Origin: Harmothoe impar
Taxonomy: Eukaryota; Annelida; Polychaeta; Phyllodocida; Polynoidae
Direction of reading: 5' to 3'
Length of the DNA: 64,000 bases
Assembly: GCA_947462335.1 (NCBI GenBank)
Contig: OX381707.1
Location: 62,163,773 to 62,227,772 of the forward strand
Shown here: one piece after another, positions 41,925-64,000 of the stretch
Numbering within the stretch: the stretch's first letter is position 1
Layout: the number at the start of each line of letters is the position of its first letter
The notes under the pieces: generated by a model
The model's database searches: none
Seen by the model: the letters and a program-made list of their open reading frames with translations, nothing else
What the model was told of the DNA's origin: nothing
Made by a program: the position numbers and the translations under genes

Positions 41925-41973
41925 TTTGGTGCTGATGTCACACAAAGGGTGGGAATAGCAGGACTAGAGTCCC

Positions 41974-47426: not shown

Positions 47427-47710
47427 GGCCTGTAACGGGTTGACTATAAAGTCTAACTGTTATTGTTGTATATCTATTGTATGTTGTATGATGTAAGACA
47501 ACACGGTTCTATTGTGTTTAATAACTGTTTTATTCATCTAACTAGTGTCGTCGGTTCGTTACATACACCGACTCCTCTAGTTCGGTTATCTATACGGTAG
47601 TGTACCGGTACCACCTTCGGTTACCGTCGGTAGTTGTTACATAATCATTTTTACATAACTAAACCTAACAGGTGGCGCTGCTAGTACGGTCACGTGGCTA
47701 CGCAGCGCTG

Positions 47711-47718
47711 TATATAAG
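47711..47718 (+). promoter_or_regulatory. LTR TATA box
   Basis: TATATAAG, expected to start the genomic RNA about 25-30 bp downstream (around 47740), which would make U3 about 310 bp. The same octamer is used in the internal ORF3 promoter. Confidence 0.75.
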
Positions 47719-47891
47719 ACGGCTGCTTCCCCATTGGAAGTCAGTCAGGTTTGGGACTGTCGTGACATGACCACCCTGTGCTCACGGGCTTAACTCTATG
47801 CTATAGGGTTGCCCACTGTATTATATATCTGTTCTGATCTCGTATATCCGCTGGTTATACTTGTACTATAATACCCAAGAGTTACCTTTAC

Positions 47892-47897
47892 AATAAA
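47892..47897 (+). terminator. LTR polyadenylation signal
   Basis: AATAAA, about 180 bp downstream of the TATA box. The functional copy for the full transcript is the one in the 3' LTR at 58903-58908. Confidence 0.65.
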
Positions 47898-47978
47898 GTC
47901 GCCGTATATTAAAGTCTAATTTACCTTGTCTGGTTTTTGTACTCAAGTGTTACATACGTAGTAAGAGACCAACTACAT

Positions 47979-47991
47979 TGGTGCCGTGACC
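47979..47991 (+). other. Primer binding site, tRNA-His
   Basis: TGGTGCCGTGACC begins one base after the LTR. Its first 12 bases are complementary to the 3' end of animal tRNA-His (…GTCACGGCACCA). The assignment is from my knowledge of the tRNA sequence. Confidence 0.7.
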
Positions 47992-48038
47992 ACTTGACGA
48001 ACCGACCATTGATAGGGTATTAAATAGACTTACAGTAT

Positions 48039-50192
48039 ATGGATTACCTATACGATTTTGTCAGCTCGTTCAGCGGCAGGACTAAAACCCCTGCTGAGGA
48101 ACGTGAAGAAGCCGTACAGAATGTACGCTTCTTCACAGGCAAATCTAATAGGCGGGAGAGCCGGGCAGCCTTGGAGGTGCCCGGTGACGACCTCTCCCAA
48201 GAAGCAATAGGTGATCCTATTGTGGAAGCCTTTACCAAAGGAGAGGATGGGGAGCAATCTCCAATCCCGGGACCCTTTGATATAAGCTCCAGGAGATCGT
48301 TGGACTCCCTTTCCACGAATCTTTTCTGTCCGGAGGGTCAGAAAATACCGGGTAGAGAGCCTAAAACTCTCGGCCCAGCTGCCTTCGGTTCTACACCGAC
48401 GGTAGCAGATCCTTCATTGGATCCAGACACGTCGGTTTTCACTGATGGTGCCACTCCTACACCGAACGGTATGGGGGGTGGCGGGCTATCAAAGAAAACT
48501 AACGTGGCAACAGAAGCTCCTGGTAAGGGGTACCCGGCAGCAGTAGATGAGCCATCCAGTTTACCACTGGATGGGGACCTACTAGCTGCCATGGGGATCC
48601 CCACCAAGAAAACTGAGTTGCATGAGCTCGCTGAAGCCCGGAGGGAACTTGCTTCCATCAATCAAACTAGGAAGTTATTCCTAAGGGAGGTTGATGAGAA
48701 GAAAAAGTTCCTACTGGAACTCCAGAACGAGATGGCTTCCCACAAGGTGGAGGTTGACAAACTTTTGCACCAGAGGGTGTCCGGCGAATGTGAGGTTGCA
48801 AGCTTAACTTCCTTGGGAAAGGATTTGAGCACGCAACTCCACTTAGCCAGACAGGACCTCGCAAGCTTAAGGCAAGTCAATCAGGACCTGAAGACGAAGT
48901 CGGAGAAAGTACCACCACCTTCCACGGTGGTACCTCCAGTCATACCCGTACCCAGTGTATACACGACAGTGACACCTTCGAGTGTCCCGCCGCTAGTACA
49001 CACCACGGTAACAGGTATGACACCTCAGATGGGGGCTAGCTATCTACAGACTCCGGTCTGTGGTGGCGCCTTTGGAGGCACGGCAACACCTCCAGGGTAC
49101 ACCCACCCATCTACTGGTTCAACGATGTTGAACCAACAGCAGACCATGGTCTCAGTTCCAGTACCGAAACCCAGAGCTAGACAGGGCTTAACTCCTGTCC
49201 AGCGGGCTAAGTACGACCGGAACCCGGCTATTGAGAAGCTGGGGACAGACATCGTCCCGCGGGACATCGATGAACTGGATGAACGGTATGCTCCTTTCAA
49301 CTTTGGGGAGATCAAACATCCGGATGCAGCCCGTCAAAAGGCCATCGATATTCCGCCTTTCACAGGGTCGCCACCCTGGAGAAAGTACAAAGTTCGGTTC
49401 AAGGCTATTGTGGAGAGCAATCGCTGGAACAATCAGCAAGCGCTGGTTGCTCTGAAGCAAGCACTCTGCAACGGGCCAGGTGAACCAGCCCTTTTGGCAT
49501 TCGAGAGAGTGAAGATCAAGACATTGAGCTCACTTGAAGAAACAGCTGAATGGGCGATTGGGAAGATTGGTGAGCATGACCCAAGGACTCAGCTGCTCAA
49601 ACGTGTCCAACGCAAGGACGAGCATCTGAGATCCTACGGATTTGCTCTACAAGAACTGATATCCGAGTGTTATCAGGGATGTAGACCTGACACCCCCACT
49701 GTCATCCAGGAGTTAACCTCCAGGTTTGTCAATGGAGTCAGAGACACCAATCTCCAGGCATATCTGCGGGAGAAATGGCAGCCGGACTTATCTCTAGCTG
49801 ACCTTTTTGACCATGCAGATGTGTATGACACCAAACAGGCTGTTTTTCCTAGTGGAGGAGTGTCGGCAGCTCCATCTGTAGCCCCGAAAGGAGCTCAGGT
49901 GGTAGAGGCCGCCACAAAACCACCTAAGAAAAAACAGCCCGCCTCTGAGGAGGTGGCGGCAGTAATGCCTGACAGGGACATGGAGAAGATGATTGAGGGT
50001 TTGTTGCGGAAGCACTTGGAAAAGAGCTCTGCGTCCACTTCTGATTCTGGATCTGGAAAGAGAAGGAAAAAGAAGAAAAAGGACACGAAACCTCAGCCAT
50101 GTAGACGCTGTCAGAAGATGGGTCATTGGGCTAGCGAATGCAAAGCCCCTGCACCCATCGCTGCTAAAACCGAAAAGGAGACGGAAAACTGA
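48039..50192 (+). CDS. gag: Gag polyprotein
   Basis: This is the 717-aa capsid/nucleocapsid precursor of the LTR element, the structural protein that packages its RNA in cytoplasmic particles. Residues about 1-190 are low-complexity and Pro/Gly/Ser-rich. Residues 193-288 are a charged coiled coil (heptads such as ELHELAEARRELASI). A Pro/Thr-rich linker follows, then a capsid-like region at about 430-600 of the retrotransposon-gag type (FKAIVESNRWNNQQALVALKQ…). A Lys-rich stretch (RRKKKKKD) precedes one CCHC zinc knuckle at 688-701 (CRRCQKMGHWASEC). The start is the first ATG after the primer site, 61 bp past the LTR. It is larger than typical gypsy Gags (300-500 aa), mainly through its N-terminal half. 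It ends at TGA, 3 bp before the hairpin of the frameshift signal. Confidence 0.92.
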   Translation: MDYLYDFVSSFSGRTKTPAEEREEAVQNVRFFTGKSNRRESRAALEVPGDDLSQEAIGDPIVEAFTKGEDGEQSPIPGPFDISSRRSLDSLSTNLFCPEGQKIPGREPKTLGPAAFGSTPTVADPSLDPDTSVFTDGATPTPNGMGGGGLSKKTNVATEAPGKGYPAAVDEPSSLPLDGDLLAAMGIPTKKTELHELAEARRELASINQTRKLFLREVDEKKKFLLELQNEMASHKVEVDKLLHQRVSGECEVASLTSLGKDLSTQLHLARQDLASLRQVNQDLKTKSEKVPPPSTVVPPVIPVPSVYTTVTPSSVPPLVHTTVTGMTPQMGASYLQTPVCGGAFGGTATPPGYTHPSTGSTMLNQQQTMVSVPVPKPRARQGLTPVQRAKYDRNPAIEKLGTDIVPRDIDELDERYAPFNFGEIKHPDAARQKAIDIPPFTGSPPWRKYKVRFKAIVESNRWNNQQALVALKQALCNGPGEPALLAFERVKIKTLSSLEETAEWAIGKIGEHDPRTQLLKRVQRKDEHLRSYGFALQELISECYQGCRPDTPTVIQELTSRFVNGVRDTNLQAYLREKWQPDLSLADLFDHADVYDTKQAVFPSGGVSAAPSVAPKGAQVVEAATKPPKKKQPASEEVAAVMPDRDMEKMIEGLLRKHLEKSSASTSDSGSGKRRKKKKKDTKPQPCRRCQKMGHWASECKAPAPIAAKTEKETEN

Positions 50193-50228
50193 ATGGGGCC
50201 CATCCTCTTGGCAAGGATGGCGCCCCCA
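50183..50228 (+). promoter_or_regulatory. Probable -1 ribosomal frameshift signal at gag/pol
   Basis: pol lies in the -1 frame relative to gag, and its frame opens at 50168, so the two overlap by about 25 nt. At 50183-50189 GGAAAAC resembles slippery heptamers (GGGAAAC, AAAAAAC). Four bases later a stem-loop begins: TGGGGCCCATCC (50194-50205), loop TCTTGGCAA, then GGATGGCGCCCCCA (50215-50228). The stem is about 12 bp, with one bulged base in the 3' arm. Slippage on GAA-AAC would read on as CTG AAT GGG. The heptamer is not canonical at its first triplet. Confidence 0.6.
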
Positions 50229-50275
50229 CAGTTAGCCATACCTGTAAGGGATTAGTAGACGGTGTTAACTCTTCC

Positions 50276-53200
50276 ATGAACCAAGGCCGCGCAGAGGCAG
50301 AAGGGTCTGTACAACCTGTAAGCGTCTGGCAAGGCGGGGCTGGCAAGGACGAACGGAATCCGGAGGATTCTGTAGTCGCTGGCTTAGAGGAGTCTTGGTT
50401 AGAATCAATTGCCCAGAGCAGTGTGATTCAAGACTCCCCGAGCGACCCATGTTGGGATTATCTCCTGACAAAAGGGGTTGCTATGGATGGAGGGGGAAGC
50501 CCGATGCTGACCTCTGAGTGTGTCCCTTTACGGGGACAGCGTTGGTACCTGAGTCTGGTTATTTCCGGGACGCGTGGTGAATTTTTGGTCGACACGGGTG
50601 CATCTCACACCTTGGTCGACCGTAAATTCATGGCCCGTCTTTGCAACCAGCCCGAAGCTCCGCTACTAGGAGTAAAGGCTCGGACTGCTACGGGAGATAG
50701 TATGCAGACTTATGGCAGAACTGTAAAACCTATGTTGGTTGATGGCAAGACATACTGGATATGTCCAACCATCACCGACATCACTGATGATGGCATACTG
50801 GGGATGGACTTTGCTGCTCTTTACGGGGTAACAATGAACACCGCCACGGGCCGACTTCAGATTAAACATCCTTATAAACAATCTGTACAGTGCGTTTTAA
50901 GGAATGGTTCTTCTGTGGCGTCAGTGGCACAAGACACAAAGTTGGCAGCAGGACATGTATCTGATGTCCTAGTCAGCTGCGTGGGAGTGCAGGCCAAACG
51001 ACCGGGAATGTTTGAACCAGAAGATCAAAAGCTCTCTGAGTTAGGTCTTGCTGGCTATCATACTTACCTGGCCAACGCTCGTTGGGGGGTGATACCGATT
51101 TGTAACTCGAGTAGTAGAGAAATCACTCTACGAAAGGGGACGCCTATTGGTAACACCACGCGAGCATATGGGGTAGACTCACTAACTACTGACTTTGTGG
51201 AAGTAGGTGTGGTGGCGGGAGACTCTTCCCACGAAGAGGCTCTAGCTAAATCCAACCTACCGAAACATTTAAGGTCCCTGTTGTGTGAGTCACACCTCAC
51301 AACCCTAGAGAGCGAAATGGTGGCAAATGAGCTGTCGGAGTTATCTGACGCCTTTGCGCAACCAGGAGATCCTCTAGGGCGTACCAATACGGTACAACAC
51401 CGGGTTGACACTGGGGACGCGCTTCCCAGTAGAATCCCCTACCGTCGGTTACCCATGGCTAAAAAAAGTGCTATGGAGGCTGAGGTAGAAAAGATGTTGG
51501 ATGAAGATGTGATTCAACCTAGTGAAAGTCCATGGTCAAGTCCTGTGGTGATGGTCACCAAGAAGGATGGTTCCTGTCGATTTTGTATCGACTATAGGAA
51601 GTTGAACGGACTCACTAGGAAGAATGCATATCCTCTACCTCGGATAGATGAATGTGTGGAGTCTCTGGGTGGGGCGAAATGGTTCTGTACACTAGATTTA
51701 CAATCTGGTTATTGGCAGATCGGCATGGACCCCCGGGACCGAGAAAAAACCGCATTTTCTACCCATATGGGACTATTTGAGTTCAACGTCATGCCATTCG
51801 GGCTATGCAATGCCCCGGCAACCTTCGAGGCAATGATGGAAACCATGTTACGGGGTTTACTTTGGAAAAAGTGCCTAGTATACTTGGACGACATCATCGT
51901 CTTCGGTGGTTCTGTGGAGGAAACTCTACAGAACCTCCAAGCTGTGCTGAAACGCATCTTATCATATGGTCTGAAATTGAAACCTTCAAAGTGCAAGCTT
52001 TTTAGGAAGTCAGTTGAATACCTAGGTAGAATTGTTTCTGAACATGGCATCATGGCTGATCCTCATAAGATCGAAGTGGTACAGAACTGGCCTCGTCCGA
52101 TGGACACGAAGGAGATACGCTCTTTCATCGGGTTTTGTTCATACTACAGAGATTTTATACCTGGATTCTCGAGAGTCGCAGCTCCCTTACAAGAGCTGAT
52201 GATTGGAGAGAAGAAGGCTAAGGCTAAAATAGTCTGGTCTCCAGCCGCAGAACAGTCTTTCAGTGAGTTAAAGAGACTCTTCTTAGAAACACCTGTTTTG
52301 CACTACCCTGCACCTGTTGGTAAGTTCATCTTGGACACTGATGCTTCTAATACAAGTATTGGTGCTGCCTTGTCGCAGATCCAGGATGGGCGAGAAGTGC
52401 CGCTGGCATTTTCGTCCAACAGTCTAAGCAAAACACAACGTAACTACTGCACAACCAAGCGTGAACTCTTGGCAGTGGTGGTTTACACAAAAAAGTACAG
52501 ACATTTCCTATATGGTGGGAATTATCTCGTACGGACGGATCATTCATCTCTGCAGTGGCTCCTTAACTTCAAGGACGCTGAGGGGATGATGGGTAGATGG
52601 TTGAACCACCTCTCTGAGTTTGGCATGACGAATGAGCATATCATACACAGGAGTGGAGTAGATCATGTGAATGCGGACAGCTTGTCCCGCTATCCTATCC
52701 GGAACTGTCACCGTGTAGACTGCCGAGACTGTGGGTCTCACAATGCAGTGATTGCGTCTGTGGGTGCGAAAGTTCCTAACTGGACGTTAAATCACTTGAA
52801 GGATGAGCAGCTTGCAGATCCGGCTATTTCGAGGGTGTACTCCTTGAAGTTGTTGGGCCTGTCCAAGCCTGTTCGCCCCGCACTTTCGCTGGAATGTAAA
52901 GAAGTTAGACAACTGTTAGCTCAGTGGGATAATCTTTTTATACGGAACAGTGTATTGTGCCGCTGGAGAGTGCAACCTGGCAGGAAGAGAACAGCTCAGT
53001 CTGTAGTGCCTCTGTCACTCAGACTACAGTTGCTCAATTACTGTCATGGCCACCGAACTTCAGCACACTTTGGCAGACAACGGACTGAGGCAAAGATTAA
53101 GAGTAGATATTACTGGCCTGGTATGACTTTGGACATACGGCGTTGGGTAAAGCAATGCCCCCAATGCTGTTTATCAAAGCCTGGACCTGGTATCGGTAAA

Positions 53201-54415
53201 CTACCTCTAAGTCAAGAGCTATTCGGTGTTCGGTTTGCCCGGATCGCTGTTGATATCATTAGTGGTTTCAACACGACCCCCCGTGGGAATACCTGTATGA
53301 TGGTGGTACAGGACTACTATACCAAGTACGTCCAAGTATATCCGTTGGTAAATCATACAGCTGTTACCTGCGCTGAAGCACTTTTCGAGAATTGGATCCT
53401 CACGTGGGGAGGTCCTTTAATGCTTCACTCCGACCAGGGTCGTGAGTTTGAATCTCGACTGTGGGCAGAACTGTGTAGTAAAATACACATCTGCAAGACG
53501 CATACGAACCCCTACCGACCTCAATCGGATGGTATGGTGGAACGTTTCAATCGGACGTTGATCCAATGTCTCACGACAATGGTTAATGAGCACCGGGATG
53601 ATTGGGATGAGCATGCTCGCTATATCTCCCATGCTTACAATGCTACCGAACATGCGTCGACGGGCTGTACGCCTAATATGCTCGTAATGGGTGAAGACAT
53701 AGTCATGCCGAGTGACATGGTCTATGGAGTGCAGGGACACCAGCTCGAGCAACCCTGCACAGTGATGTTTGTTGAATCACTTCGACAATCATTACGCGAG
53801 TCCTATGGAGTAGTAAGGGACAACTTGGAAAAATCTGCTAGTTTGCAGAAGGTGGGCTATGACACGGGCCTTAAACTCCGCCAATTCAAGGTGGGGGATA
53901 AGGTCGCGAGATTTAGCACACCAAATTCCAAAGTCAAGACCCTGTACTCCTGGGATGGTCCGCATACGGTTACTATGGTGGTTAGTGAAACTACTGTAGT
54001 AATACGGTTGCAAAAAGGGACTCTCACTAAATCACATGTGGCTAGACTCCGACCTTGGTATGGAGTCCCATATATAGATGACGGTGAAGATTCCCTCGGT
54101 GCTGGTCGAGTACCAGCACCAACCGACCCTGCGCTACCGAAGATACCGAAGGCAGGACCAACGGTCATACCGTCGGTACCGACGGTAGCGCGCCGAAGGG
54201 GTCGTCCTAGGAAATTACCGATTGAACCACAGTCGTGTGTTACCAAGCCCAAGCGCGGTAGGCCTCGTAAAAAAGGGTCAGCTGTGCGTAAAGGACTAAC
54301 CATAGACACCGGTAAACAAAGCAAGGTGATACCTCCGGTGTCATCATTGCTGGACATACCGGTACAAGGTCTACGGAGGAGCACACGTGTCAGAGAGCGA
54401 GATAAAATTGTGTAA
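50276..54415 (+). CDS. pol: Pol polyprotein: protease, RT, RNase H, integrase
   Basis: This frame provides the enzymes that copy the element and insert it. The first ATG gives 1379 aa, but the frame is open from 50168 and is probably entered by -1 frameshifting from gag. The aspartic protease has VDTGAS at about 105-110. The reverse transcriptase spans about 395-620 with YLDD at 536-539. RNase H follows at about 675-795. The integrase has an N-terminal HHCC finger (H926, H931, C961, C964) and the catalytic triad D993, D1053, E1089 (a D,D-35-E spacing). It ends with a GPY/F-like module (YSWDGPHTV, then RPWYG). The C-terminal tail carries two AT-hook-like motifs, RRRGRPRK (about 1306-1313) and KRGRPRKK (about 1326-1333), that may bind AT-rich DNA. 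All catalytic residues seen are intact. Confidence 0.95.
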   Translation: MNQGRAEAEGSVQPVSVWQGGAGKDERNPEDSVVAGLEESWLESIAQSSVIQDSPSDPCWDYLLTKGVAMDGGGSPMLTSECVPLRGQRWYLSLVISGTRGEFLVDTGASHTLVDRKFMARLCNQPEAPLLGVKARTATGDSMQTYGRTVKPMLVDGKTYWICPTITDITDDGILGMDFAALYGVTMNTATGRLQIKHPYKQSVQCVLRNGSSVASVAQDTKLAAGHVSDVLVSCVGVQAKRPGMFEPEDQKLSELGLAGYHTYLANARWGVIPICNSSSREITLRKGTPIGNTTRAYGVDSLTTDFVEVGVVAGDSSHEEALAKSNLPKHLRSLLCESHLTTLESEMVANELSELSDAFAQPGDPLGRTNTVQHRVDTGDALPSRIPYRRLPMAKKSAMEAEVEKMLDEDVIQPSESPWSSPVVMVTKKDGSCRFCIDYRKLNGLTRKNAYPLPRIDECVESLGGAKWFCTLDLQSGYWQIGMDPRDREKTAFSTHMGLFEFNVMPFGLCNAPATFEAMMETMLRGLLWKKCLVYLDDIIVFGGSVEETLQNLQAVLKRILSYGLKLKPSKCKLFRKSVEYLGRIVSEHGIMADPHKIEVVQNWPRPMDTKEIRSFIGFCSYYRDFIPGFSRVAAPLQELMIGEKKAKAKIVWSPAAEQSFSELKRLFLETPVLHYPAPVGKFILDTDASNTSIGAALSQIQDGREVPLAFSSNSLSKTQRNYCTTKRELLAVVVYTKKYRHFLYGGNYLVRTDHSSLQWLLNFKDAEGMMGRWLNHLSEFGMTNEHIIHRSGVDHVNADSLSRYPIRNCHRVDCRDCGSHNAVIASVGAKVPNWTLNHLKDEQLADPAISRVYSLKLLGLSKPVRPALSLECKEVRQLLAQWDNLFIRNSVLCRWRVQPGRKRTAQSVVPLSLRLQLLNYCHGHRTSAHFGRQRTEAKIKSRYYWPGMTLDIRRWVKQCPQCCLSKPGPGIGKLPLSQELFGVRFARIAVDIISGFNTTPRGNTCMMVVQDYYTKYVQVYPLVNHTAVTCAEALFENWILTWGGPLMLHSDQGREFESRLWAELCSKIHICKTHTNPYRPQSDGMVERFNRTLIQCLTTMVNEHRDDWDEHARYISHAYNATEHASTGCTPNMLVMGEDIVMPSDMVYGVQGHQLEQPCTVMFVESLRQSLRESYGVVRDNLEKSASLQKVGYDTGLKLRQFKVGDKVARFSTPNSKVKTLYSWDGPHTVTMVVSETTVVIRLQKGTLTKSHVARLRPWYGVPYIDDGEDSLGAGRVPAPTDPALPKIPKAGPTVIPSVPTVARRRGRPRKLPIEPQSCVTKPKRGRPRKKGSAVRKGLTIDTGKQSKVIPPVSSLLDIPVQGLRRSTRVRERDKIV

Positions 54416-54751
54416 ACATTTTTTTCTTACCTTGTTGACGACATTTAGCTGCTGGCTTGATTAAATTTCCCTGGACAGTTCCGTACTGGGCCGGTGGTCA
54501 TTGGCCCGGTACTCGATCACCAAAACACAACGAGAAGAGACGGGTTATCCGGTGTGGTTATCCGTTGGAGGTAGAAAAGCACGTGTTCAGGGCGGGTGGC
54601 TGGCTTTGCCGATTAGTTCTAAGTATGGGACTAGTTTTGACCACATATTGCTTAGCAACACGCTGCTGTGTATATCCTCTAATGCCGGTATATCATTCCC
54701 GGGTTATCCGGTGGCTACGCCACGAAAATTGTAAACAACAGTGAGGTTCCC

Positions 54752-54926
54752 ACCGTCGGATATGCCAGACGTGGGAAGGGCGCTGCCCGCGTCACCTGAT
54801 CGATTTCTCCCGCCAAATGAGCCGTGAGAAATTGGGTCACCTCGTCGCGTCTTCGGGGCGCGACCCCTGATTGGCTGAGAAGCCGGTCAAGGGGCGGGGT
54901 CACGGGGGACGGGTGGGGTATATAAG
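54752..54926 (+). promoter_or_regulatory. Internal RNA polymerase II promoter for ORF3
   Basis: Between pol and ORF3 lie, in textbook order, the motif ACCGTCGG (54752-54759), an inverted CCAAT box (ATTGG, 54870-54874), the GC box GGGGCGGGG (54891-54899) and TATATAAG (54919-54926). The expected start is near 54950, about 150 bp before the ORF3 ATG. The region is much more CpG/GC-rich than pol. A dedicated promoter would free ORF3 expression from the LTR and from splicing. Confidence 0.65.
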
Positions 54927-54951
54927 CCCCACAGGCAGCCAGGCTTCTTCA

Positions 54952-54987
54952 GATCAACACGTTTGCCCGTAGGGTAGCGTGTTGATC
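54952..54987 (+). other. Hairpin at the predicted 5' end of ORF3 mRNA
   Basis: A perfect 10-bp inverted repeat, GATCAACACG / CGTGTTGATC, with a 16-nt loop. It would sit almost at the cap of an RNA started from the internal TATA box, and could equally be a DNA-level operator-like site. Confidence 0.6.
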
Positions 54988-55050
54988 AGTGGTGCCTAGG
55001 TCTGCCCGGCAGTACCTACACTATTGTTTACTGTAGCTGTGCTACTAAAT

Positions 55051-55092
55051 GCTCGGGTGAGTGAACCGTGAGGTTCACCTACGCCTGAGCTA
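55051..55092 (+). other. Second hairpin just before the ORF3 start
   Basis: The inner stem GTGAACC-GTGA-GGTTCAC (55061-55078) extends outward to GCTCGGG / CCTGAGC with a few mismatches and ends 6 bp before the ATG. Its left arm includes GGGTGAGT, a good splice-donor-like sequence. The hairpin might control translation or hide a donor site; the sequence alone does not decide between these. Confidence 0.5.
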
Positions 55093-55097
55093 ACAGT

Positions 55098-57509
55098 ATG
55101 GCAGCCCGTGTAGATGGCAAATGCACGGCCCCGGAGAAGGCTGAGGCCTCCGATGGGGAAGACCGAGTTCTCGAGTCTGACACGGAAATGGACACTACCG
55201 GTGCTCCAACCGTCGGTCAAGGCTCGGCTTCGGTACCAACTGAACCTAACCCTGAGGGGTCGGGTGATGTTGTTCCGAAGACAGAACCTGGTCTGGGTGG
55301 TAGTAATACCAACCAGGAGGAGAACCCTGCAGGGGGATCTTCTCCGAAACCCGCCGGTGTATTGGCACAAGAACCGACGGTCCCTGATGGTGATTCATCA
55401 GACGGGTCCACGGTTCGTGCTAAGACCAAACGGAAACGGAAGCGTAAGAGGAAGATTACATCTTCCCCTGAAACTCCTGCTACCGAAGAGGTCGCACCGA
55501 CTGAGGCAGATCGGCTCAAAGCTGTTGCTGATAGAGTGTCCAAGGCGGAAGCCGAGGGATGGTCTGTCGCAGAGAGCAGAGCCAATCGACGCCTCCGCGC
55601 CAAGGCAGCGCATGTCCGTCTAAACCTGTGTCTCCGTGATGATGACCGGGAGAACCTGAGCCTCACTGATTTAATTCAGGAGAATGGCAAAATGGCTCTT
55701 CCTGCACCTCACACGGTCGACGGTTCAGACGACGAAGACTGGTTGACAGGTGATTCCCATCCCATTGACTGGTACCTCGTGTACCTCAAGGCAGTGTTGG
55801 CGGGGAATAAACCTAACATCCATAGGTCATGCCGTCCCAAGCTGAAATATGCTTGGAAGAACTACGTGCCAGGGGATCCCTGCCCGTACGTTCGCTGTCA
55901 GCGCCTGAAAGGGACTGCGACAGCAGCAAAACGGTGGCCAAACCTTTTCAAGTTTGCCCGTCATTTGGTAGAGAAGCACATGAATGTGCGTCCCTACTTG
56001 TACTGTGTGAGTGGAAGTACGAGTACTTCCTGCCCTGAGTACAGTGACGGGGAACTATTCCGTAGCCAACGGAGATCTGGTTTGGTAAGGCATCTTTGCG
56101 ACAATAAGGGCGTGCACAAGCGCACTATTAGTCGTGGAGTTGAGGCTGCACTGAAAGTTTGGGGTGTCCACAAACGTGTAGGAAATCTACAGTTTAAGTG
56201 GCGAACCAACAAACTTAAACAGTGGAACTACCTCACGGAGGCTGACTGGGAGAGGTTGTGTAAGGGCGCCAAGTGCGAACAAACCGACCTGGGACCAGCT
56301 ACAGAAGCTCCGATGCCCACTGTAAAGAAGGATACCCCTCCTAAGAAGAAAAATCTAAAAAGGGGCCGCCAGGCATCCAAAGATGATACCAAAGGTGGAC
56401 GTGACCGTTCCCGCAGTGAACCTGCGAAGAAACGTGTCGCCTCCGCCACGGTAACATCTGAGGTCGACCGTAGCCAAACCGTCGGTACCATCACGGTATC
56501 TTCGGTTGCATTGCCCCCGGTTGCTGATCAACTGCCCAGGCAGGAGAGACAGAAACTGGGGAATGCACTGGCTATTGTTCAGAACTCTTTGGGTGACGAG
56601 CAGGCGGAACAAGTCGCTGCTGACTATGTCAAGCAGTACAAGTGGAGTCAGAAGCAAAAGAAAGCTTCAGCCCCACAGGAGAGTGTCTCACCTGTCAGTG
56701 ACGCTGAACAGGTAGAGGTACAACAGCCGGATGGGGCGTCAGCCCAGCCGACTGCTCCACCCCAGCACGGAGCAACCTCTGACCCCGCAAGGGATGACGA
56801 GGTGACTCCAGACCCTGAGCACAGGGCTGTTGACGAAGGGCTAGCAGGGTTACCTGTGTTGCCTGGAGACGGTCCTGCCTTTGACACTGGATTCTCTGAC
56901 ACTCTAGTCCCCGGATTTGAGTGCTACAGAGCTAAGATGGCTGAAAACGCAAGTAAGCTACTCCAGTTTCAGGTTTCCTTCTTGGAGAAGTCGTACTTTG
57001 AGCAGTACAAGTTGCTCAGAGAACAGGCTATCCGGGAAGGGAAAGCTTGGGTTGCTGAACGCACCAGAGTCCTTGCCGAGCGCGAGGCGAGTCTGGAGCA
57101 AGATCATGCCTTCTGGAGGGCTACGATCGACCAACTCGAATCAAGGTTGACAACTTGTGACGCCAAGTTCTTCCGGCAGTTCGGGTTTAAGCTGACAGAG
57201 TGGGAGAGATCTGGTTTTCCAGATCTCCAGTCCAGGTTGGGGCTTGCCGCAAGGCCTGCTCCTCCTGTGACCCCGGTACTGTCAGTACACCCACCTAGGT
57301 ATGAGATGCCATTTTCTTTCATGGCACAATCTACCCGGGTGGTCAGTGGCGGGGAGCCTACTGCGGCGCCGAGTACCCTCTCGGTGGCCCCAGGTGGAGC
57401 CCTTCCTCTCCAGGTGGAGGCTGCTGTGGTTTGCACCACGGAGGCCCCTCCTGGAGGAAGTCCTGATGGGGAAGGAAAGCCATCCGGCGGTGTCCCTATG
57501 GACACCTAA
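55098..57509 (+). CDS. ORF3: putative nuclear zinc-finger/coiled-coil protein of the LTR element
   Basis: An 803-aa protein that I do not recognise as a known family. Residues 1-110 are acidic and low-complexity. KRKRKRKRK at 111-119 is a strong nuclear-localisation signal. Residues about 225-390 form the only compact-looking domain, with two variant C2H2 fingers: C262-X4-C267…H289-X4-H294 and C303-X8-C312…H332-X7-H340. A second basic region lies at 410-447, a Pro/Gln/Asp-rich linker at 520-600, and a coiled coil at about 610-690. There is no signal peptide or membrane segment, so it is not an envelope. It sits between pol and the 3' LTR behind its own TATA promoter, where some retroelements carry accessory regulators. 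DNA or RNA binding and control of the element's promoters is my inference. Confidence 0.8.
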   Translation: MAARVDGKCTAPEKAEASDGEDRVLESDTEMDTTGAPTVGQGSASVPTEPNPEGSGDVVPKTEPGLGGSNTNQEENPAGGSSPKPAGVLAQEPTVPDGDSSDGSTVRAKTKRKRKRKRKITSSPETPATEEVAPTEADRLKAVADRVSKAEAEGWSVAESRANRRLRAKAAHVRLNLCLRDDDRENLSLTDLIQENGKMALPAPHTVDGSDDEDWLTGDSHPIDWYLVYLKAVLAGNKPNIHRSCRPKLKYAWKNYVPGDPCPYVRCQRLKGTATAAKRWPNLFKFARHLVEKHMNVRPYLYCVSGSTSTSCPEYSDGELFRSQRRSGLVRHLCDNKGVHKRTISRGVEAALKVWGVHKRVGNLQFKWRTNKLKQWNYLTEADWERLCKGAKCEQTDLGPATEAPMPTVKKDTPPKKKNLKRGRQASKDDTKGGRDRSRSEPAKKRVASATVTSEVDRSQTVGTITVSSVALPPVADQLPRQERQKLGNALAIVQNSLGDEQAEQVAADYVKQYKWSQKQKKASAPQESVSPVSDAEQVEVQQPDGASAQPTAPPQHGATSDPARDDEVTPDPEHRAVDEGLAGLPVLPGDGPAFDTGFSDTLVPGFECYRAKMAENASKLLQFQVSFLEKSYFEQYKLLREQAIREGKAWVAERTRVLAEREASLEQDHAFWRATIDQLESRLTTCDAKFFRQFGFKLTEWERSGFPDLQSRLGLAARPAPPVTPVLSVHPPRYEMPFSFMAQSTRVVSGGEPTAAPSTLSVAPGGALPLQVEAAVVCTTEAPPGGSPDGEGKPSGGVPMDT

Positions 57510-58429
57510 GGTTGGTCCCCCGTCAGGCCCTCTGGGGTGCACTGTTCCGCCCCTCGGAGGTAAAACTAAACCATCGACGCAGCTACACGCCCCTGGACAC
57601 CCAAAAGCAGACCGACGGTGCTGTCGTGACTTAACTGAGTCTCTACTGCCACCACACTGGAAGCAGCCTGATGTCTTCAACCGTGGTTTACTACTAAGCC
57701 ACAACCGTCGGTGCTCTACTACTGTCCAGGGCTCCTGATCCTGTGGTCACATTCTGCTATTGTGACCTATGAACTATTATATGGATCATCCTCCTGTGAT
57801 AATTATTTATAGGGAGGCACGGACCTACCTTTTTATATTTATATTTCACAAGAGATGGAAGTACTATACCGGTACTGGACTCTATCCATCTCTACCACCA
57901 TAAACTGCTAGGTACTGGAGTACCGCCCCTAATAAGGATGACGATCTATCCCACCTTATTTTAGGATACGCTATTATGGATTTTTATATATAAACTTTTC
58001 TACGCCAAAGGAAGTGGGAACTGCTATAGTTCCTATTATAAAACTTTTCTTCGCCAAAGGAAGTGAGAGCTATTATAGTTCTATTATTTATATATAAGGA
58101 CACTAACTCCACACGGATTCGCACCATTGCTGAATGAAGTAGGTGATGTGTTGAGTTTCCAAGGTGGTTATTTGGTGCCTTTACTATTAACTGATACTAG
58201 TCTAGGACTATCAGTTGGACAGTTTTTATATCATGTGCCTACGGGACTATGGTTTTACAAAGACTATATTGTTGATATAAACTGTTATGTGCATGTTAAC
58301 ATGTATGTTCATGTATGTATGCCTGTTGTTACTATGAGTAGAAATGTTACTTGTTGATAAATAGATATACGTGGTATATAATGTATCCAAGAGGTATTAT
58401 TATTATAAAACCAACCCTTCCTACATTCT
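57510..58429 (+). other. 3' untranslated region of the LTR element
   Basis: Non-coding sequence between ORF3 and the polypurine tract. It holds two more ACCGWCGGT motifs (57611-57619 and 57704-57712) and a tandem duplication of about 50 bp at about 57985-58085 (AAACTTTTCTACGCCAAAGG… / AAACTTTTCTTCGCCAAAGG…). The 76-codon frame at 58127-58357 lacks an ATG start and has no domain. Confidence 0.7.
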
Positions 58430-58441
58430 AAAGGGGGGTAG
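58430..58441 (+). other. Polypurine tract
   Basis: AAAGGGGGGTAG directly abuts the 3' LTR and is the expected plus-strand primer for reverse transcription. The T at the second-last-but-one position is a small departure from pure purine. Confidence 0.85.
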
Positions 58442-58988
58442 TGTAACGGGTTGACTATAAAGTCTAACTGTTATTGTTGTATATCTATTGTATGTTGTAT
58501 GATGTAAGACAACACGGTTCTATTGTGTTTAATAACTGTTTTATTCATCTAACTAGTGTCGTCGGTTCGTTACATACACCGACTCCTCTAGTTCGGTTAT
58601 CTATACGGTAGTGTACCGGTACCACCTTCGGTTACCGTCGGTAGTTGTTACATAATCATTTTTACATAACTAAACCTAACAGGTGGCGCTGCTAGTACGG
58701 TCACGTGGCTACGCAGCGCTGTATATAAGACGGCTGCTTCCCCATTGGAAGTCAGTCAGGTTTGGGACTGTCGTGACATGACCACCCTGTGCTCACGGGC
58801 TTAACTCTATGCTATAGGGTTGCCCACTGTATTATATATCTGTTCTGATCTCGTATATCCGCTGGTTATACTTGTACTATAATACCCAAGAGTTACCTTT
58901 ACAATAAAGTCGCCGTATATTAAAGTCTAATTTACCTTGTCTGGTTTTTGTACTCAAGTGTTACATACGTAGTAAGAGACCAACTACA
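58442..58988 (+). repeat. 3' LTR
   Basis: It has the same 547-bp sequence as 47431-47977; no difference was seen on a line-by-line reading. It has TATATAAG at 58722-58729 and AATAAA at 58903-58908. Confidence 0.97.
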
Positions 58989-59273
58989 GGCCAAATAAAA
59001 AAAAAGTTTTGTTTCAGGTAACATGAGAAGAAACTCTAGGGTCGGTAGGTCGGATTTTTTTAAAACTTTTTTTTTTCTACTTCCCCTGTATAATTGACCC
59101 AAAAAAGTGCAAAAATGAGGAGATTTTTTCCCTAAATTTTGTAAACCTAACATTGACCCCAAAAAAGTATAAAAATAAAAATTTCTTTAAAATTGCATAA
59201 AAAAACGTAGGGTCGGCCCTGTTTAGATAGGGTCGGTCGGGTGACCTAAAGCAAACCTTCTTTTTTTTTGGCC
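58989..59273. mobile_element. Harbinger-like MITE, copy 3, split by the LTR element
   Basis: The ends are GGCCAAATAAAAAAAAAGTT and, inverted, GGCCAAAAAAAAAGAAGGTT, with GGGTCGG motifs inside each end. The right flank is TTA (59274-59276). The matching left TTA lies at 47424-47426, followed by GGCC at 47427-47430. The LTR retrotransposon therefore inserted at the very tip of this MITE and duplicated GGCC. Confidence 0.8.
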
Positions 59274-59276
59274 TTA

Positions 59277-59659
59277 GGAAATACGGGAATCAGGCTATAA
59301 AACTGTGGTCATTAACAAGATCCAATGAATATACAAAGCGTGTTATGTCCATTACAATATTGATATTTGAAAAATCAATTCAATGTTTGGATGTTAATGT
59401 TGAATAATATCATTCAATATCAAAGTTCAACTGTTGTTTAACAATTAATGAACTTCAATTCAGTAGTGATAGATAGAGCTATAGATAAACGTTATCTTCT
59501 AAAAGTTGTCTTACTCTCAGTTTAAAAACTGAGCTACTTGATAATTATTCTCAACATTCTTAGCTTAGAATGGCACTGTATGTGTAAAACAAACACTTTT
59601 TACAACGGTCAGTAGGCTGTAAACTGAGGAAGATATATGGAATGTATTACTTTATACAT
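59277..59659. other. Gap between MITE and LINE, nothing recognised
   Basis: AT-rich sequence without a recognisable frame or repeat. The true 5' end of the LINE could lie here. Confidence 0.4.
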
Positions 59660-59667
59660 GACTATAG

Positions 59668-59677
59668 CAAGATGGCG
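59668..59677 (+). promoter_or_regulatory. YY1-like site at putative LINE 5' end
   Basis: CAAGATGGCG followed by GAATACTGGCAGC. Mammalian L1 starts with a closely similar CAAGATGGCCGAATA, a known YY1 site that sets the transcription start. It lies 162 bp before the ORF1 ATG. Confidence 0.45.
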
Positions 59678-59829
59678 AATACTGGCAGCGGTTGACTTTT
59701 GAGAAGGTCCGCATTAGATCCACTAACATCGGAGTCTATGTTACAATCAGGACATTTATTTTCACCCTGATGCCTCTATGAATAACATCGCTCGCCGAGG
59801 GTTATAAATTTGACCTATGGGAGTATTAA

Positions 59830-61197
59830 ATGGAGGAGAAACGTGAAGGTATTCAAACTAGAAGCCAGCGTAAGGAACAGGAGGACGATAATAGGGTTGA
59901 TTCAGGTCAAATCGGCATCGTCACTAAGGTAAACAAACCGTGTGTCAACATGGCGAATGACGATACTATTAGGACTTTTATGGCTGACATAAAGAAAATA
60001 AATGAATCAACCCTGGATAGGCTTGGCTCCATTGATACGTCTCTTAGTGGTCTAAACAAGAAAGTTGACGACAATAAGGGGCTAATCGAGTCTTATGTAA
60101 CATCCAATGATATGGTAGTGTCCGGCTTGAAGGAACGTATAGAGGATATAGAGGAACACCGCGGGAAGGCGGATCAGTATTGTCGTCAACTGGAGTTGGA
60201 CAATGCTAGACTAGAGCACAAGTTGGATAAACTCTCACTTAGGGTCAGGCAAAACGAAGAGATGTTAAAGCGCCACAACATCCTTATTGAAGGGGTACCG
60301 GAAAAGCAAGGTGATACTCCAAAGAAGATTTTGATTGATTTAATGGTAGATATAGGTGCCATTAAAGGCAATGAGCGTGTACATCTTGACGCGGCCTATA
60401 GGATTGGAAAACATCGGCCTAACCAAACCAGACCCAGGAATATCCTTGTGAGATTTAAGGACTTAGATCTCAAACTCAGACTCTTCCAAGAAATTGGAAA
60501 TATGAAGCACAAGAAGAGGTGGGAGGACGTTTATGTATCTGACGATCTCAGCATGGAACAGCAGAATGAGAGGAAAGAACTGAGGTGCTTGGCTAAAGTA
60601 GCCACCACTAAAGGTATGTCTGCAAAGGTTAAAGGTGGCAAACTGGAAATTGGCGACAAAACGATGACGTACAGAGATCTGTACCAACTACCCCAAGGAG
60701 TCACCATGGAGGCTGCAAAATTAGTGGTGATACCTTCAGGGACTTGCTTTCAATCGCATCATGCATTCCTCTCCAATATGCACCAATGCGAAATTGAGCA
60801 TGAGGGTATTATTTGGAACAGCTCAGAACAACTCTTCTGGTACAGAATGGCGAAATATAATGACGATGAGGAAATGGCTCGTAAAATCATGTTGAGTACT
60901 GATGGATATGAAGCTAAGAGACTGTCTTACCAGATTAAGGTGTCCAAGGCCGACAACGCAACCAACAGGTTCAAGATCATGGAGGAGGTATCAGAGCTGA
61001 AGTATCTCCAAAACACAGACATGGGTGAGAGACTCAAGGCGATTTCTGGTGGGATTTACGAATGTACCCTCGAAAAACCCTGGGGGTGCGGATTCACAAT
61101 TGCCAGAGCACACGAGATTACACCAAATAACATTAAGGAAAACAAGATGGGAAAGATCCTCGAGGCTCTAAGGGACAAGCTGAATAGCGCAACATAA
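59830..61197 (+). CDS. LINE ORF1 protein with C-terminal NADAR domain
   Basis: A 455-aa protein. Residues about 45-145 form a coiled coil (expected trimer). Residues about 148-250 look like the RRM of L1-type ORF1 proteins (RHNILIEGVPE… then RPRNILVRFKDLDLKLRLF). About 251-298 resembles the following C-terminal domain (YRDLYQLPQG). These parts normally bind element RNA. Unexpectedly, 305-455 matches the NADAR/YbiA fold: FLSN (313-316), the strand CEIEHEGIIWNSSEQ with E333-Q334, MAKYNDDEEMARKI, KYLQN, then PWGCGF (417-422) and a final KMGKILEALRDKL helix. NADAR enzymes cleave N-glycosidic bonds in ADP-ribose derivatives, including ADP-ribosyl-guanine in DNA. A Lys usual eight residues after the Glu appears as Met340 here, so activity is uncertain. 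The start is the only ATG giving the full coiled coil, with A at -3. Confidence 0.85.
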   Translation: MEEKREGIQTRSQRKEQEDDNRVDSGQIGIVTKVNKPCVNMANDDTIRTFMADIKKINESTLDRLGSIDTSLSGLNKKVDDNKGLIESYVTSNDMVVSGLKERIEDIEEHRGKADQYCRQLELDNARLEHKLDKLSLRVRQNEEMLKRHNILIEGVPEKQGDTPKKILIDLMVDIGAIKGNERVHLDAAYRIGKHRPNQTRPRNILVRFKDLDLKLRLFQEIGNMKHKKRWEDVYVSDDLSMEQQNERKELRCLAKVATTKGMSAKVKGGKLEIGDKTMTYRDLYQLPQGVTMEAAKLVVIPSGTCFQSHHAFLSNMHQCEIEHEGIIWNSSEQLFWYRMAKYNDDEEMARKIMLSTDGYEAKRLSYQIKVSKADNATNRFKIMEEVSELKYLQNTDMGERLKAISGGIYECTLEKPWGCGFTIARAHEITPNNIKENKMGKILEALRDKLNSAT

Positions 61198-62083
61198 TGT
61201 ATAGATATATGTAACTCAATATCTGCTGAAAGGTTCCCAAAGTAATTGCATTTTCCCCATGTCATGTCTTATTTTTTCATGTAAAAACACAGTGGAAATT
61301 GACTCACATTTTAATGTACGGTATATTTAAATTCTATGAATTTAAAGATATTTGTAATAATTACTTTGTACAAGTCATTCAACAATATCCTCTCTATATA
61401 TAATCATAATGTTATGGTGTAGGCCAATAATTACCCTGTTTAGGTTGTCTTAGATCCATCTGTATTATTGTGTTAATGCTAAATAGCCTACATACGGTAT
61501 AATATACACCAGCGATCAGCTGTTGAGCGGTCGTGGTCAGTGATTCACCTCTAACACGACAGGTGGCGCCAGTGAGTGTCGAACATTGTGCTCGCTTGAT
61601 ATGTATATTGTTGGTTTCTCGACTTACCGGTACTTTATTATAGAGCATCCTAGCAAATTGGAGAGGAGACTAAGCCACCATGGTTGTAATGTTTCTTTTG
61701 TTTATTACTAGTATATTTGTATGTCTCACGCTAGACACTGTTGGGTTAATTATTGTTGATCGAAGCCTACCGGTACTGATTGTATTGTCTAGACCTATGG
61801 CAATGAGCCTTTAATTCTGTCGGTATTTAAAATAACTATTTTCACAGGATATATTCGTTTAATCTAGAAATTGATTGATGTAACGATTTAAATTTATTTA
61901 AGTCTATATATTGATTAAGTGGTATATAGCTGACCCTATCTAGGGGTTAACTCTGTACAACTTATCTCATGTGGGAGACTTACTTCTCCTCTGTAGGTGG
62001 CACGAGTTACCTATACCTACCTTACTGTATTCATGTGTATTATGTAGTGATTGACTGGATATCATTGGGCTACCCTGTATTCT
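61198..62083 (+). other. Long spacer between LINE ORF1 and ORF2
   Basis: 886 bp without a domain-bearing frame. Most two-ORF LINEs have overlapping or closely spaced ORFs, so ORF2 may need an internal ribosome entry or its own transcript. An AGGTGGCGCC motif lies at 61561-61570, and a 44-codon hydrophobic frame lies at 61680-61814. It cannot be excluded that two different elements are joined here. Confidence 0.55.
61680..61814 (+). CDS. Small hydrophobic ORF with optimal start context (tentative)
   Basis: 44 codons, beginning in GCCACCATGG, the ideal vertebrate-type initiation context. The product is strongly hydrophobic over its first 26 residues (MVVMFLLFITSIFVCL…), like a signal anchor or transmembrane segment, and then has DRS and SRP. 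I recognise no family. It lies between ORF1 and ORF2 of the LINE. The context may be coincidental, so confidence is low. Confidence 0.2.
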   Translation: MVVMFLLFITSIFVCLTLDTVGLIIVDRSLPVLIVLSRPMAMSL

Positions 62084-64000
62084 ATGGTGGGTAGACACGT
62101 GAAAAGGGGTAGCAAAAATGATTTTTCATTGTCACATATTAATATTAGAAGTCTTAAGTCTAAGATTGAGACATTGCGTACACACATGTTTAGTAATTCT
62201 GATGCTGTATTGGGTATATCTGAAAGCTGGCTCCATGAAGCGGTACCTACTCACTTTGTGGATTTAGTTGGCTATAATTTGGAAAGACACGATAGAGCAT
62301 GGGGTGATGATATTATAAAAACAGGGGGGGGTGTTGCCATTTATATTAGGAAGGATTTATCCTATTCGACTACTAATTATCAACACCTTAATGTCAGTAG
62401 TAACGACATTGAGATTCAATGGGTTGAAATTATAAGAAATGGCAAAAAAAATATTGTGGTGGCAAATGTGTATAGGCCACCTGATGGTGACAAGGCCTCG
62501 TTTATTGAGCAGTTTAATTCGCTTATTAATAGAGCTCAACTTAGGAGAAAAGACCTAATGATTTTAGGATACTTTAATTTTGATTATTTGAATGTTACCA
62601 AGGTCTCGACAAGACTTATGAAAATATGTTTAAATATTCTAGGGCTGCAACAAATTATTGGCACCGCCACCAGGTCTAATGAGACGTCTAGTACATGCCT
62701 AGATTGGGTTATTACTAACACTACTAAACTGTTTGAATCATACACTAGAAAATGGAACTTGAGTGATCACCTTATGGTAGGAATCACTTTAGTTGATCAT
62801 TACTATGTAAATGAAAAGGTGTCCTTTGAGGGACGCTCGTATAAACGCTATAATGCTGAATTGTTTAAAGCCTGCATTAGAGATGCCGATTGGGGCCCTA
62901 TTGACGACTGTAATAACATTAATGAGAGATGGCAATTTATTTTGAATTTATTTACGTCGGAGCTTGATAATATGTGTCCTATTAAGACATTCAAGGTAAA
63001 AAAGGACAGGGCACCCTGGATCACCGACCACATCTTAGAAATTATCCATGATAAAGATACAGCTTTGGCGAGGGCTATTAGAAGCAAATCAGCAGATGAC
63101 TGGCGTTTGGCTAGTAGTCTAAGAAATAAAGTTAATAAATTTATAAGAAAGGCCAAAAGTAAATTTATTAGAGATAGCCTTGAAGAAAATCAGAAAAATA
63201 GCAAGAAATTTTGGCGTATCATAAATGGATTGGTCAAAGGTGATAGGGGTGTGCCACACTTTAAATTGAAGGACCATGTCAGGGGGGTGCTGGTAGATGA
63301 TGGTGATACACCTGACTTTATTAATGATTATTTCTTAAATATAGGTCCCAACCTTGCCAGAGCATATAATGTACCTTGGTCGTTCGACGGGGAAGAACTT
63401 GAGCAGGGGCTGTCAGATATAGAGACAAATGAGACTGAGGTATTGAAACTCATCAAGGGTTTGGATACTACTAAGTCATCTTGTATCGATGGTCTGTCTT
63501 CACCAGCTCTTAAGGATGCTATGACAGCAGTTCCTGAGCGTATAGCGGCATTGTTTAATGAATCCTTTATCACCAGCTCTATCCCAGATATATGGAAGGT
63601 TGGTACTATTGTTCCATTACAAAAGGATGGTGACAAATCGGAGGTGTCTAACCTGAGACCTGTGACTTTACTTCCTGTTATTGGTAAATTATTAGAAAAA
63701 ATAGTTAATGATAGATTAATTAATTATTTAGAAGATAATGATATTTTGGATCCCAAACAGGGGGGTTTCAGGTCAGATCACTCCACTATTAGTACTGTAA
63801 GCTATTTCACAGATGACATTTACACAGGGTTTAATACAAGGCAGTATACCTTGGCTACATTTATCGATTTGAAGAAGGCTTTCGACACCGTAAACCACTC
63901 GATTTTATTAGAAAAATTGTCCAAAATTGGTGTCGGGGGCCTTCTTCAAAAATGGTTGACCTGCTATCTTAGTAAAAGAAAGCAACGCACCTCTGCTAAT
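62084..64000 (+). CDS. LINE ORF2: AP endonuclease and reverse transcriptase (partial, runs off window)
   Basis: 639 codons are open to the window edge without a stop. The first in-frame ATG follows a TGA at 62048-62050. An AP-type endonuclease spans about 16-235: SHINIRSL, E47 in SESWL, IYIRKDL, VANVYRPP, then GYFN (162-165) and LSDH (226-229). In active endonucleases the third-last motif is GDxN; here the catalytic Asp is Tyr163 (GGA TAC), so nicking by this copy is probably lost. The RT begins near 500 (GTIVPLQKDGD, LRPVTLLPVIGKLLEK, GGFRSDHST) and reaches motif A, FIDLKKAFDTVNH, with D595. The YADD box and C-terminal part are beyond the window. It would make cDNA by target-primed reverse transcription. 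Confidence 0.92.
   Translation, partial: MVGRHVKRGSKNDFSLSHINIRSLKSKIETLRTHMFSNSDAVLGISESWLHEAVPTHFVDLVGYNLERHDRAWGDDIIKTGGGVAIYIRKDLSYSTTNYQHLNVSSNDIEIQWVEIIRNGKKNIVVANVYRPPDGDKASFIEQFNSLINRAQLRRKDLMILGYFNFDYLNVTKVSTRLMKICLNILGLQQIIGTATRSNETSSTCLDWVITNTTKLFESYTRKWNLSDHLMVGITLVDHYYVNEKVSFEGRSYKRYNAELFKACIRDADWGPIDDCNNINERWQFILNLFTSELDNMCPIKTFKVKKDRAPWITDHILEIIHDKDTALARAIRSKSADDWRLASSLRNKVNKFIRKAKSKFIRDSLEENQKNSKKFWRIINGLVKGDRGVPHFKLKDHVRGVLVDDGDTPDFINDYFLNIGPNLARAYNVPWSFDGEELEQGLSDIETNETEVLKLIKGLDTTKSSCIDGLSSPALKDAMTAVPERIAALFNESFITSSIPDIWKVGTIVPLQKDGDKSEVSNLRPVTLLPVIGKLLEKIVNDRLINYLEDNDILDPKQGGFRSDHSTISTVSYFTDDIYTGFNTRQYTLATFIDLKKAFDTVNHSILLEKLSKIGVGGLLQKWLTCYLSKRKQRTSAN

Follow-up and report, generated by a model that had tools for sequence, protein, structure and literature searches.

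A NADAR domain under purifying selection, with an altered pocket, in the ORF1 protein of a LINE from Harmothoe impar

YbiA-family NADAR domains in LINEs are noted in one sentence of a 2025 paper, which places them in the ORF1 of Tx1 elements of Crassostrea gigas (passages of PMC12477816). The same paper names a NADAR in the Pol of an Ectocarpus Gypsy element, and suggests that such domains process RNA intermediates. The earlier note on this DNA knew of no described LINE with such a fusion; the C. gigas elements show that it is not new. Further reports of NADAR in retrotransposons were sought in the main texts of open-access journal papers, with none among the matches listed, and the main text of the 2014 survey of ORF1 proteins (PMC4120745) has no mention of NADAR or YbiA. 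The type II ORF1 of the Jockey superfamily, as presented in parts of that survey, has the coil-RRM-CTD plan also found here, together with exchange of ORF1 modules between lineages. The Ectocarpus case shares with the present locus a NADAR in a retrotransposon, but the host is an LTR element and the domain lies in Pol rather than ORF1. The passages of PMC12477816 on these elements contain nothing on selection, lysine loss or a common junction, all of which are reported below.

NADARs form a family known for removing ADP-ribose from DNA. In the P. nicotianae NADAR the distal ribose is held by E43 and E125, K50 contacts the adenine and phosphates, and R79 contacts the phosphates (passages of PMC11543638). 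According to the same passages the lysine is essential in the E. coli C7 NADAR, with arginine working as a substitute in vitro, and alanine at the E43 site has a minor effect in vitro; exchange of the lysine for a hydrophobic residue is not described in section 12 of that paper. The DarT1-associated NADAR and YbiA N-glycosidases (PMC11543638 and PMC11125620, in part) belong to the same sequence family as the domain studied here and, as in YbiA, have Glu and Glu at the acidic sites. They differ in keeping K50, which the branch described below has lost, and the passages concerned describe no RNA-binding tether. YbiA proteins have served to rescue laboratory E. coli from DarT1 (PMC11125620). The role of eukaryotic NADARs, animals included, is called unclear in a passage of PMC11125620. 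Positive-strand RNA viruses offer a further parallel, being RNA parasites with a NADAR thought to counter host ADP-ribosylation, but there the context is the polyprotein of a virus, an element unrelated to LINEs (passages of PMC9503650).

The window, the whole 64,000-nucleotide stretch of H. impar DNA that was analysed, contains the following features of the LINE.

59668..59829, + strand: 5′ UTR; the inferred 5′ end of the element is at about 59664-59670, where seven genomic copies (L167-L172, L179) begin to resemble it
59830..61197, + strand: ORF1, 455 aa, coil-RRM-CTD-NADAR; ATG start and open frame, with Pfam, profile and AlphaFold model evidence
59965..60270, + strand: coiled coil, residues 46-147; predicted as a single helix and matching the L1 ORF1p coil
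60265..60534, + strand: RRM, about residues 146-235 (approximate limits); profile match to L1 ORF1p chains
60535..60738, + strand: CTD with the beginning of the junction, residues ~236-303 (approximate limits); profile match, with a 30-residue junction from LP (residue 287) to LSN
60757..61182, + strand: NADAR domain, residues 310-451; Pfam PF08719 match, with 8bau and profile matches
60826..60828, + strand: E333, by alignment the counterpart of active-site E43 of the P. nicotianae NADAR; Glu in 33/33 ORF1s of this genome
60847..60849, + strand: M340, where the essential lysine (K50) would stand; Lys in 160/160 bacterial and viral NADARs and in 0/33 window-type copies
61060..61062, + strand: E411, counterpart of E125, the residue distinguishing the YbiA family; Glu in 33/33 copies of this genome and 160/160 comparison NADARs
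61198..62083, + strand: spacer of 886 nt between ORF1 and ORF2; comparable spacing in other copies
62084..64000 in the window, on to coordinate 64942, + strand: ORF2, endonuclease and reverse transcriptase, 952 aa, fully open; from the ORF list, Pfam and sequence beyond the window (L196)

The element is a young, coding-intact APE-type LINE of about 5870 bp. Upstream of the 5′ end the flanks differ among the compared copies. At the 3′ side, similarity to a copy on another contig (C10) that is 99.6-99.7% identical to the window's element stops at L196:3010, window coordinate 65537, after ACTCAAAAA. ORF2 matches RVT_1 of Pfam at 131 bits. No clear target-site duplication was found for the window's LINE (the best is a 9-mer, against 11 reached in 300 shuffles; 6 for the C10 copy), and Rfam gave no match at gathering score in 46000-64000. 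The third-position GC content of ORF1 is 0.48-0.55 against 0.36 in ORF2, a discrepancy that is outweighed by the linkage of the two frames at other loci. In 26 of 30 loci an ORF2 of the window's type follows ORF1 in the same orientation, and for 24 of these the distance from ORF1 to the N-terminus of ORF2 is about 0.7-1.1 kb. In L171 and L180 ORF2 is without its first ~110 residues, the pieces of L180 lying within a single 1174-aa frame, and no ORF2 was found within 1.5 kb behind ORF1 in L172, L177, L178 and L179.

NADAR is the sole Pfam family over its cut-off in ORF1 (PF08719, 60.6 bits against a cut-off of 35.1, E 2.8e-16), and the isolated NADAR part of 155 residues scores 64.2 bits. The profile of the riboflavin-intermediate N-glycosidase, TIGR02464, remains below its cut-off of 73.7 both with ORF1 (53.1) and with the domain alone (56.8). 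In a single-sequence search of the PDB, ORF1 by itself matches the solved NADAR 8bau with E 2.9e-8. This entry, entitled 'NADAR domain-containing protein', we take to be the P. nicotianae NADAR. A profile made from ORF1 aligned with six database relatives (the A1 profile) matches 8bau (2.7e-21) and YbiA 2b3w (1.2e-14) with its C-terminal part, while its middle, positions 91-254, matches the LINE-1 ORF1p 2yko (E 1.8e-10). The earlier note had read an in-frame NADAR at the C-terminus of ORF1, preceded by a coiled coil, an RRM and a CTD. The Pfam match and these profile matches bear out both parts, and the E333 and Met340 that it had named align with E43 and K50 of the P. nicotianae NADAR. By sequence comparison the order coil-RRM-CTD followed by NADAR is confirmed, with the features of a type II LINE ORF1, and the glutamate of the last strand (the E125 equivalent), as expected in the YbiA family, is E411. 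The AlphaFold model of ORF1 (mean pLDDT 78.5, pTM 0.48) has one helix of 102 residues (46-147), followed by mixed alpha/beta parts, RRM-like and CTD-like ones first and the NADAR after them. The pLDDT of the NADAR is 81-94 to residue 410, falling to 50 at 411-420 and 64 at 421-430, the region of the last-strand motif.

Six full-length relatives of ORF1 (P0001-P0006), all from other public contigs, were found on searching 5.8 billion proteins. They are 28-44% identical over 85-93% of ORF1, and NADAR is present in 6/6. A repeat search of this collection using the alignment of the six gave the same six and no others. Searching with the NADAR alone added four short proteins among 10 scored candidates, all resembling LINE NADARs; P0007 and P0010 among them retain part of the CTD in front. 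Within the genome itself (1.51 Gb, 736 contigs) the best 93 of 3436 first-look ORF1 candidates were scored, a selection that favours complete copies and in which a NADAR-less relative would score lower. The matches extend to residue 443 or beyond, i.e. to the end of the NADAR, in 87 of the 93 (counted by eye); the other six end at 341-412, within the NADAR, and none ends at the CTD. With these copies, the near-identical copy on C10 and the six outside relatives, the fusion is not unique to the window's copy, which the earlier note had named as an outcome that would tell against it; the lack of a significant NADAR profile match, which it had named as well, is countered by the PF08719 score.

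A viral or prokaryotic home for ORF1 was considered and rejected, as no relative was found in IMG/VR or in GTDB genomes by short-pattern scans sensitive to close relatives only, and a scan of the same kind and sensitivity gave no ORF2 relative in IMG/VR. The domain has distant matches in phage NADARs (131 records, the best 15 of the 131 at 26.5-32.7% identity). A nearest non-LINE source of the domain was also sought to no effect: the NADAR-only protein search gave LINE-like proteins, and standalone NADAR ORFs of this genome group with bacterial and viral rows.

The active site of the window-type domain departs from the canonical pattern in a consistent manner. Among 80 bacterial and 80 viral NADARs, E43, K50, G78, E125 and W133 are each present in 160/160 and R79 in 157/160; these sequences were fetched with patterns containing parts of the E43 or last-strand motifs, and so lean canonical. 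In 33 intact window-type ORF1s (a count omitting L172, L174, L177, L178, L179 and L180 of the first 30 loci) E333, E411 and W418 are each found in 33/33. The K50 site has no lysine in any of them (I 12, M 6, V 5, F 5, L 4, Y 1), the G78 site is Ser in 33/33, and the R79 site is Tyr in 24 and His in 9. Methionine 340, given in the earlier note as a caution about activity, is hence a trait of the branch and not the defect of one copy. Of the E43-K50-E/D125 triad for catalytic competence, E333 and E411 are present, with K50 replaced by Met. The two glutamates lie within the 16 invariant columns of 148 NADAR columns over 39 rows (the 33 copies plus P0001-P0006, many of them close kin). Lysine is kept by P0005 and P0006 among the six relatives. 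The count made with the bacterial and viral NADARs leaves out P0010, where the K50 site is Met by eye, and P0008 is without that region. Among the other LINE NADARs of the genome the lysine is kept in 24 of 26 examined, comprising 24/24 of types B, C and D and 0/2 of type E (types defined below), where the site is Arg in L235 and Cys in L237.

Purifying selection acts on the NADAR codons with about the same strength as on those of the RRM. For eight hand-chosen pairs of intact ORF1s the pooled dN/dS is 0.110 for the coil, 0.036 for the RRM, 0.026 for the CTD and 0.043 for the NADAR, these values being rough as synonymous sites are near saturation in most pairs. Two less saturated pairs give similar NADAR ratios, 0.05 in L166-L168 (dS 0.32, dN 0.017) and 0.04 in L182-L189. 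Type B NADARs were compared in two pairs, L212-L219 (dS 0.199, dN 0.019) and L227-L230 (dS 0.268, dN 0.026), again with low ratios. Over seven full-length proteins the mean identity is 37.5% in the NADAR against 30.2% in the RRM. The Ka/Ks comparison among copies that the earlier note had proposed thus indicates that the elements leaving copies retained the sequence of the domain.

NADAR domains are plentiful in this genome. When the best 150 of 3484 candidates were scored, at least 150 PF08719 matches lay above the cut-off, all at 88 bits or more; the window's own domain reaches only about 60 bits, so that these are other copies. The best 30 loci comprise four standalone ORFs (L208-L211) and 18 loci of type B, three of type C, three of type D and two of type E, a grouping of our own in which type A is window-like. 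By reading, 26 of the 30 lie in LINE-like ORF1 settings. The RRM-CTD part of the A1 profile matches 15/18 of type B, 3/3 of type D and 2/2 of type E, with 0/3 for type C and 0/4 for the standalone ORFs, and a window-like ORF2 is matched in 18/18 type B loci and 0/12 of the others. The ORF2 behind a type C ORF1 was read at one locus (L234 with L239), as was that behind a type E ORF1 (L235 with L238), which is the one locus providing an L1-like ORF2 behind a NADAR ORF1.

The reverse transcriptases (RTs) of these elements are of unlike kinds. That of type E matches human L1 ORF2p at 245 bits and that of type C at 62 bits. Window ORF2 (804 of 952 aa, including the whole RT) reaches 42 bits and has R2 as its first match, so that it is not L1-like. 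For type B, R2 is again first, with 8c8j at 39 bits and human L1 ORF2p absent among the matches listed. Between types, the RT comparisons give 337 bits for A-B, 343 for A-C and 352 for B-C, against 71 for A-E, 86 for B-E and 67 for C-E. Of the class assignments only the L1 likeness of type E comes from a direct sequence comparison; 'Jockey superfamily' and 'Tx1' are used for these types as provisional names, and the window RT is tentatively placed in the Jockey superfamily (CR1/L2-like) by its motifs. Type E has an L1-like ORF2 as expected for Tx1, which we take to be a member of the L1 group. The window's element shares with the C. gigas Tx1 LINEs a YbiA-family NADAR in ORF1 (passages of PMC12477816) but differs from them in its ORF2, which is unlike that of L1 (42 bits, where type E scores 245).

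The ORF1 proteins in front of these RTs are joined to the NADAR in the same way. Exactly 30 residues run from LP of the CTD to SN of the NADAR in one ORF1 of type A, in two each of types B, D and E, and in P0003 and P0006; the tenth ORF1 in this comparison, of type C (L234), is without this junction. When a type E ORF1 was compared with this genome, 88 of the 91 matches scored extend, by our count, to its NADAR end, most of them being other ORF1 kinds at 23-38% identity. A tree of NADARs was built with 21 of the 80 bacterial and 25 of the 80 IMG/VR sequences, hand-picked for variety before the tree was seen, together with E. coli YbiA and two phage rows (a third, L004, was omitted). The LINE rows lie apart from the bacterial, viral and standalone rows, save for E. 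coli YbiA, which falls inside the LINE set on a long branch. A single LINE clade is not rejected (p-AU 0.389); the bootstrap is not settled and deep branches are weak. We read these results as a probable single fusion of NADAR to the CTD, after which ORF1 would have passed from one LINE superfamily to another; type C may stand apart. If more loci bear it out, the presence of one ORF1 module before two unlike RTs would clearly exemplify such an exchange.

Several of these loci have features of their own. The standalone ORFs L208-L211 (G000 C19:3415138 and C21:30057793-30084570, three of the four lying in 27 kb of a single contig) have the canonical lysine in 4/4 and are candidates for cellular NADAR genes. 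In type D the locus L229/L240 (G000 C18:17527669-17534600) has a NADAR ORF1, then two extra ORFs, then the start of an endonuclease, and is perhaps a LINE with extra ORFs. The two extra ORFs of L240 are 28% identical to each other; a motif reading as esterases was rejected, with no Pfam match for either and no PDB match for the one searched. The type C loci L231, L234 and L236 have long ORF1s rich in Pro, His and Gln, a NADAR with the lysine, and a part that looks RRM-like without matching the A1 profile.

Our preferred reading, held tentatively and at rather less than even probability, is that the NADAR is a tethered ADP-ribosyl-processing module on the RNP of the element, with a pocket altered in the window branch, and that a single fusion was spread by ORF1 exchange. 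Oligomers of ORF1p would coat the element's RNA, thereby concentrating the NADAR locally on the RNP and near the cDNA and target site. It would most likely recognise N-glycosidic ADP-ribosyl (or related ribosyl) adducts on RNA, DNA or RNP proteins, placed by host ADP-ribosyltransferases, and in most lineages would hydrolyse them, so protecting transposition. In the window branch, where a hydrophobic residue replaces the phosphate-gripping lysine and Tyr or His stands at the R79 site, with both ribose glutamates kept, the pocket has probably moved to another ribosyl substrate or to binding. What weighs against the module reading is that the lysine essential in the E. coli C7 NADAR, and also G78 and R79, are missing from the window branch. 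That the window-branch domain is instead a pseudo-enzyme, a folded accessory of ORF1p that binds ADP-ribose or nucleic acid without hydrolysis, is somewhat unlikely. It would explain a K50 site that is hydrophobic, a G78 site that is Ser and an R79 site that is Tyr or His, each in 33/33, where the bacterial and viral NADARs have K 160, G 160 and R 157 of 160; yet both ribose-contacting glutamates are invariant in 39/39 rows, the domain is selected about as strongly as the RRM, and 24 of 26 other LINE NADARs examined keep the lysine. Distinctly improbable is action on NAD derivatives that are small or RNA-terminal (NAD-capped RNA, or cyclic or phosphorylated ADP-ribose signals) rather than on macromolecular adducts. 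Small derivatives are proposed for phage NADARs (in part of PMC9503650) and processing of RNA intermediates for those of retrotransposons (in part of PMC12477816), but the fixed tether to an RNA-binding part suggests a substrate on the RNP, and for RNA viruses of eukaryotes macromolecular adducts are favoured (same part of PMC9503650).

The single-fusion element of the preferred reading has its own rival in repeated capture of NADAR by different LINE lineages, which we regard as unlikely. Type C, with its long Pro/His-rich linker and no common junction, would fit such captures, as would the weak deep support in the NADAR tree and the Ectocarpus Gypsy Pol with a NADAR at its N-terminal region (passage of PMC12477816). 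Types A, B, D and E nevertheless have RRM-CTD matches in common, and their junctions are equally long, though the RTs of A and E score just 71 bits, and a single LINE clade is not rejected. Chance read-through, or an assembly artefact of one copy, has practically no probability left; it is refuted by the copies of this genome that reach the NADAR end and by the purifying selection, and is opposed also by the near-identical copy on another contig, the many open-frame relatives and the six outside relatives. The module reading can be widened to a class of LINEs in which an ORF1-tethered NADAR erases ADP-ribosyl marks from the element's own RNA, cDNA or target DNA, the window branch acts on another ribosyl mark, and LINE superfamilies have passed the module from one to another. 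We consider this unlikely as a whole; if true, it would reveal nucleic-acid ADP-ribosylation as a host defence against transposons.

What is new here is the occurrence in one genome of the same ORF1 plan and 30-residue junction before two unlike RTs, the selection, and the altered pocket. The first observation was right and is stronger than the earlier note had claimed; the novelty of the fusion itself is smaller, and that of the selection, the pocket and the two kinds of RT is larger. ZAP reportedly restricts human retrotransposition. A NADAR-rich genome, with purifying selection in types A and B, suggests that ADP-ribosylation has a bearing on retrotransposition in hosts of this kind, and this genome supplies natural versions of the domain with and without the lysine.

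The LINE has repetitive neighbours in the window. Upstream lies a Gypsy-like LTR retrotransposon (47431-58988) with two 547-bp LTRs that are 100% identical (47431-47977 and 58442-58988) and, by eye, GGCC on both flanks. It contains one ORF with a zinc knuckle, one that is pol-like (protease, RT, RNase H and integrase) and an extra ORF of 803 aa (55098-57509) that has no Pfam match at E 0.01. The stretch 41938-42764 is minisatellite-like and open in three frames (repeated SLCYRRQ / SHCVIGV), and is taken for a repeat rather than a gene. A stretch of 87 bp at 59179-59265, upstream of the LINE, recurs inverted at 2403-2486 with 87% identity, and is perhaps a short interspersed repeat.
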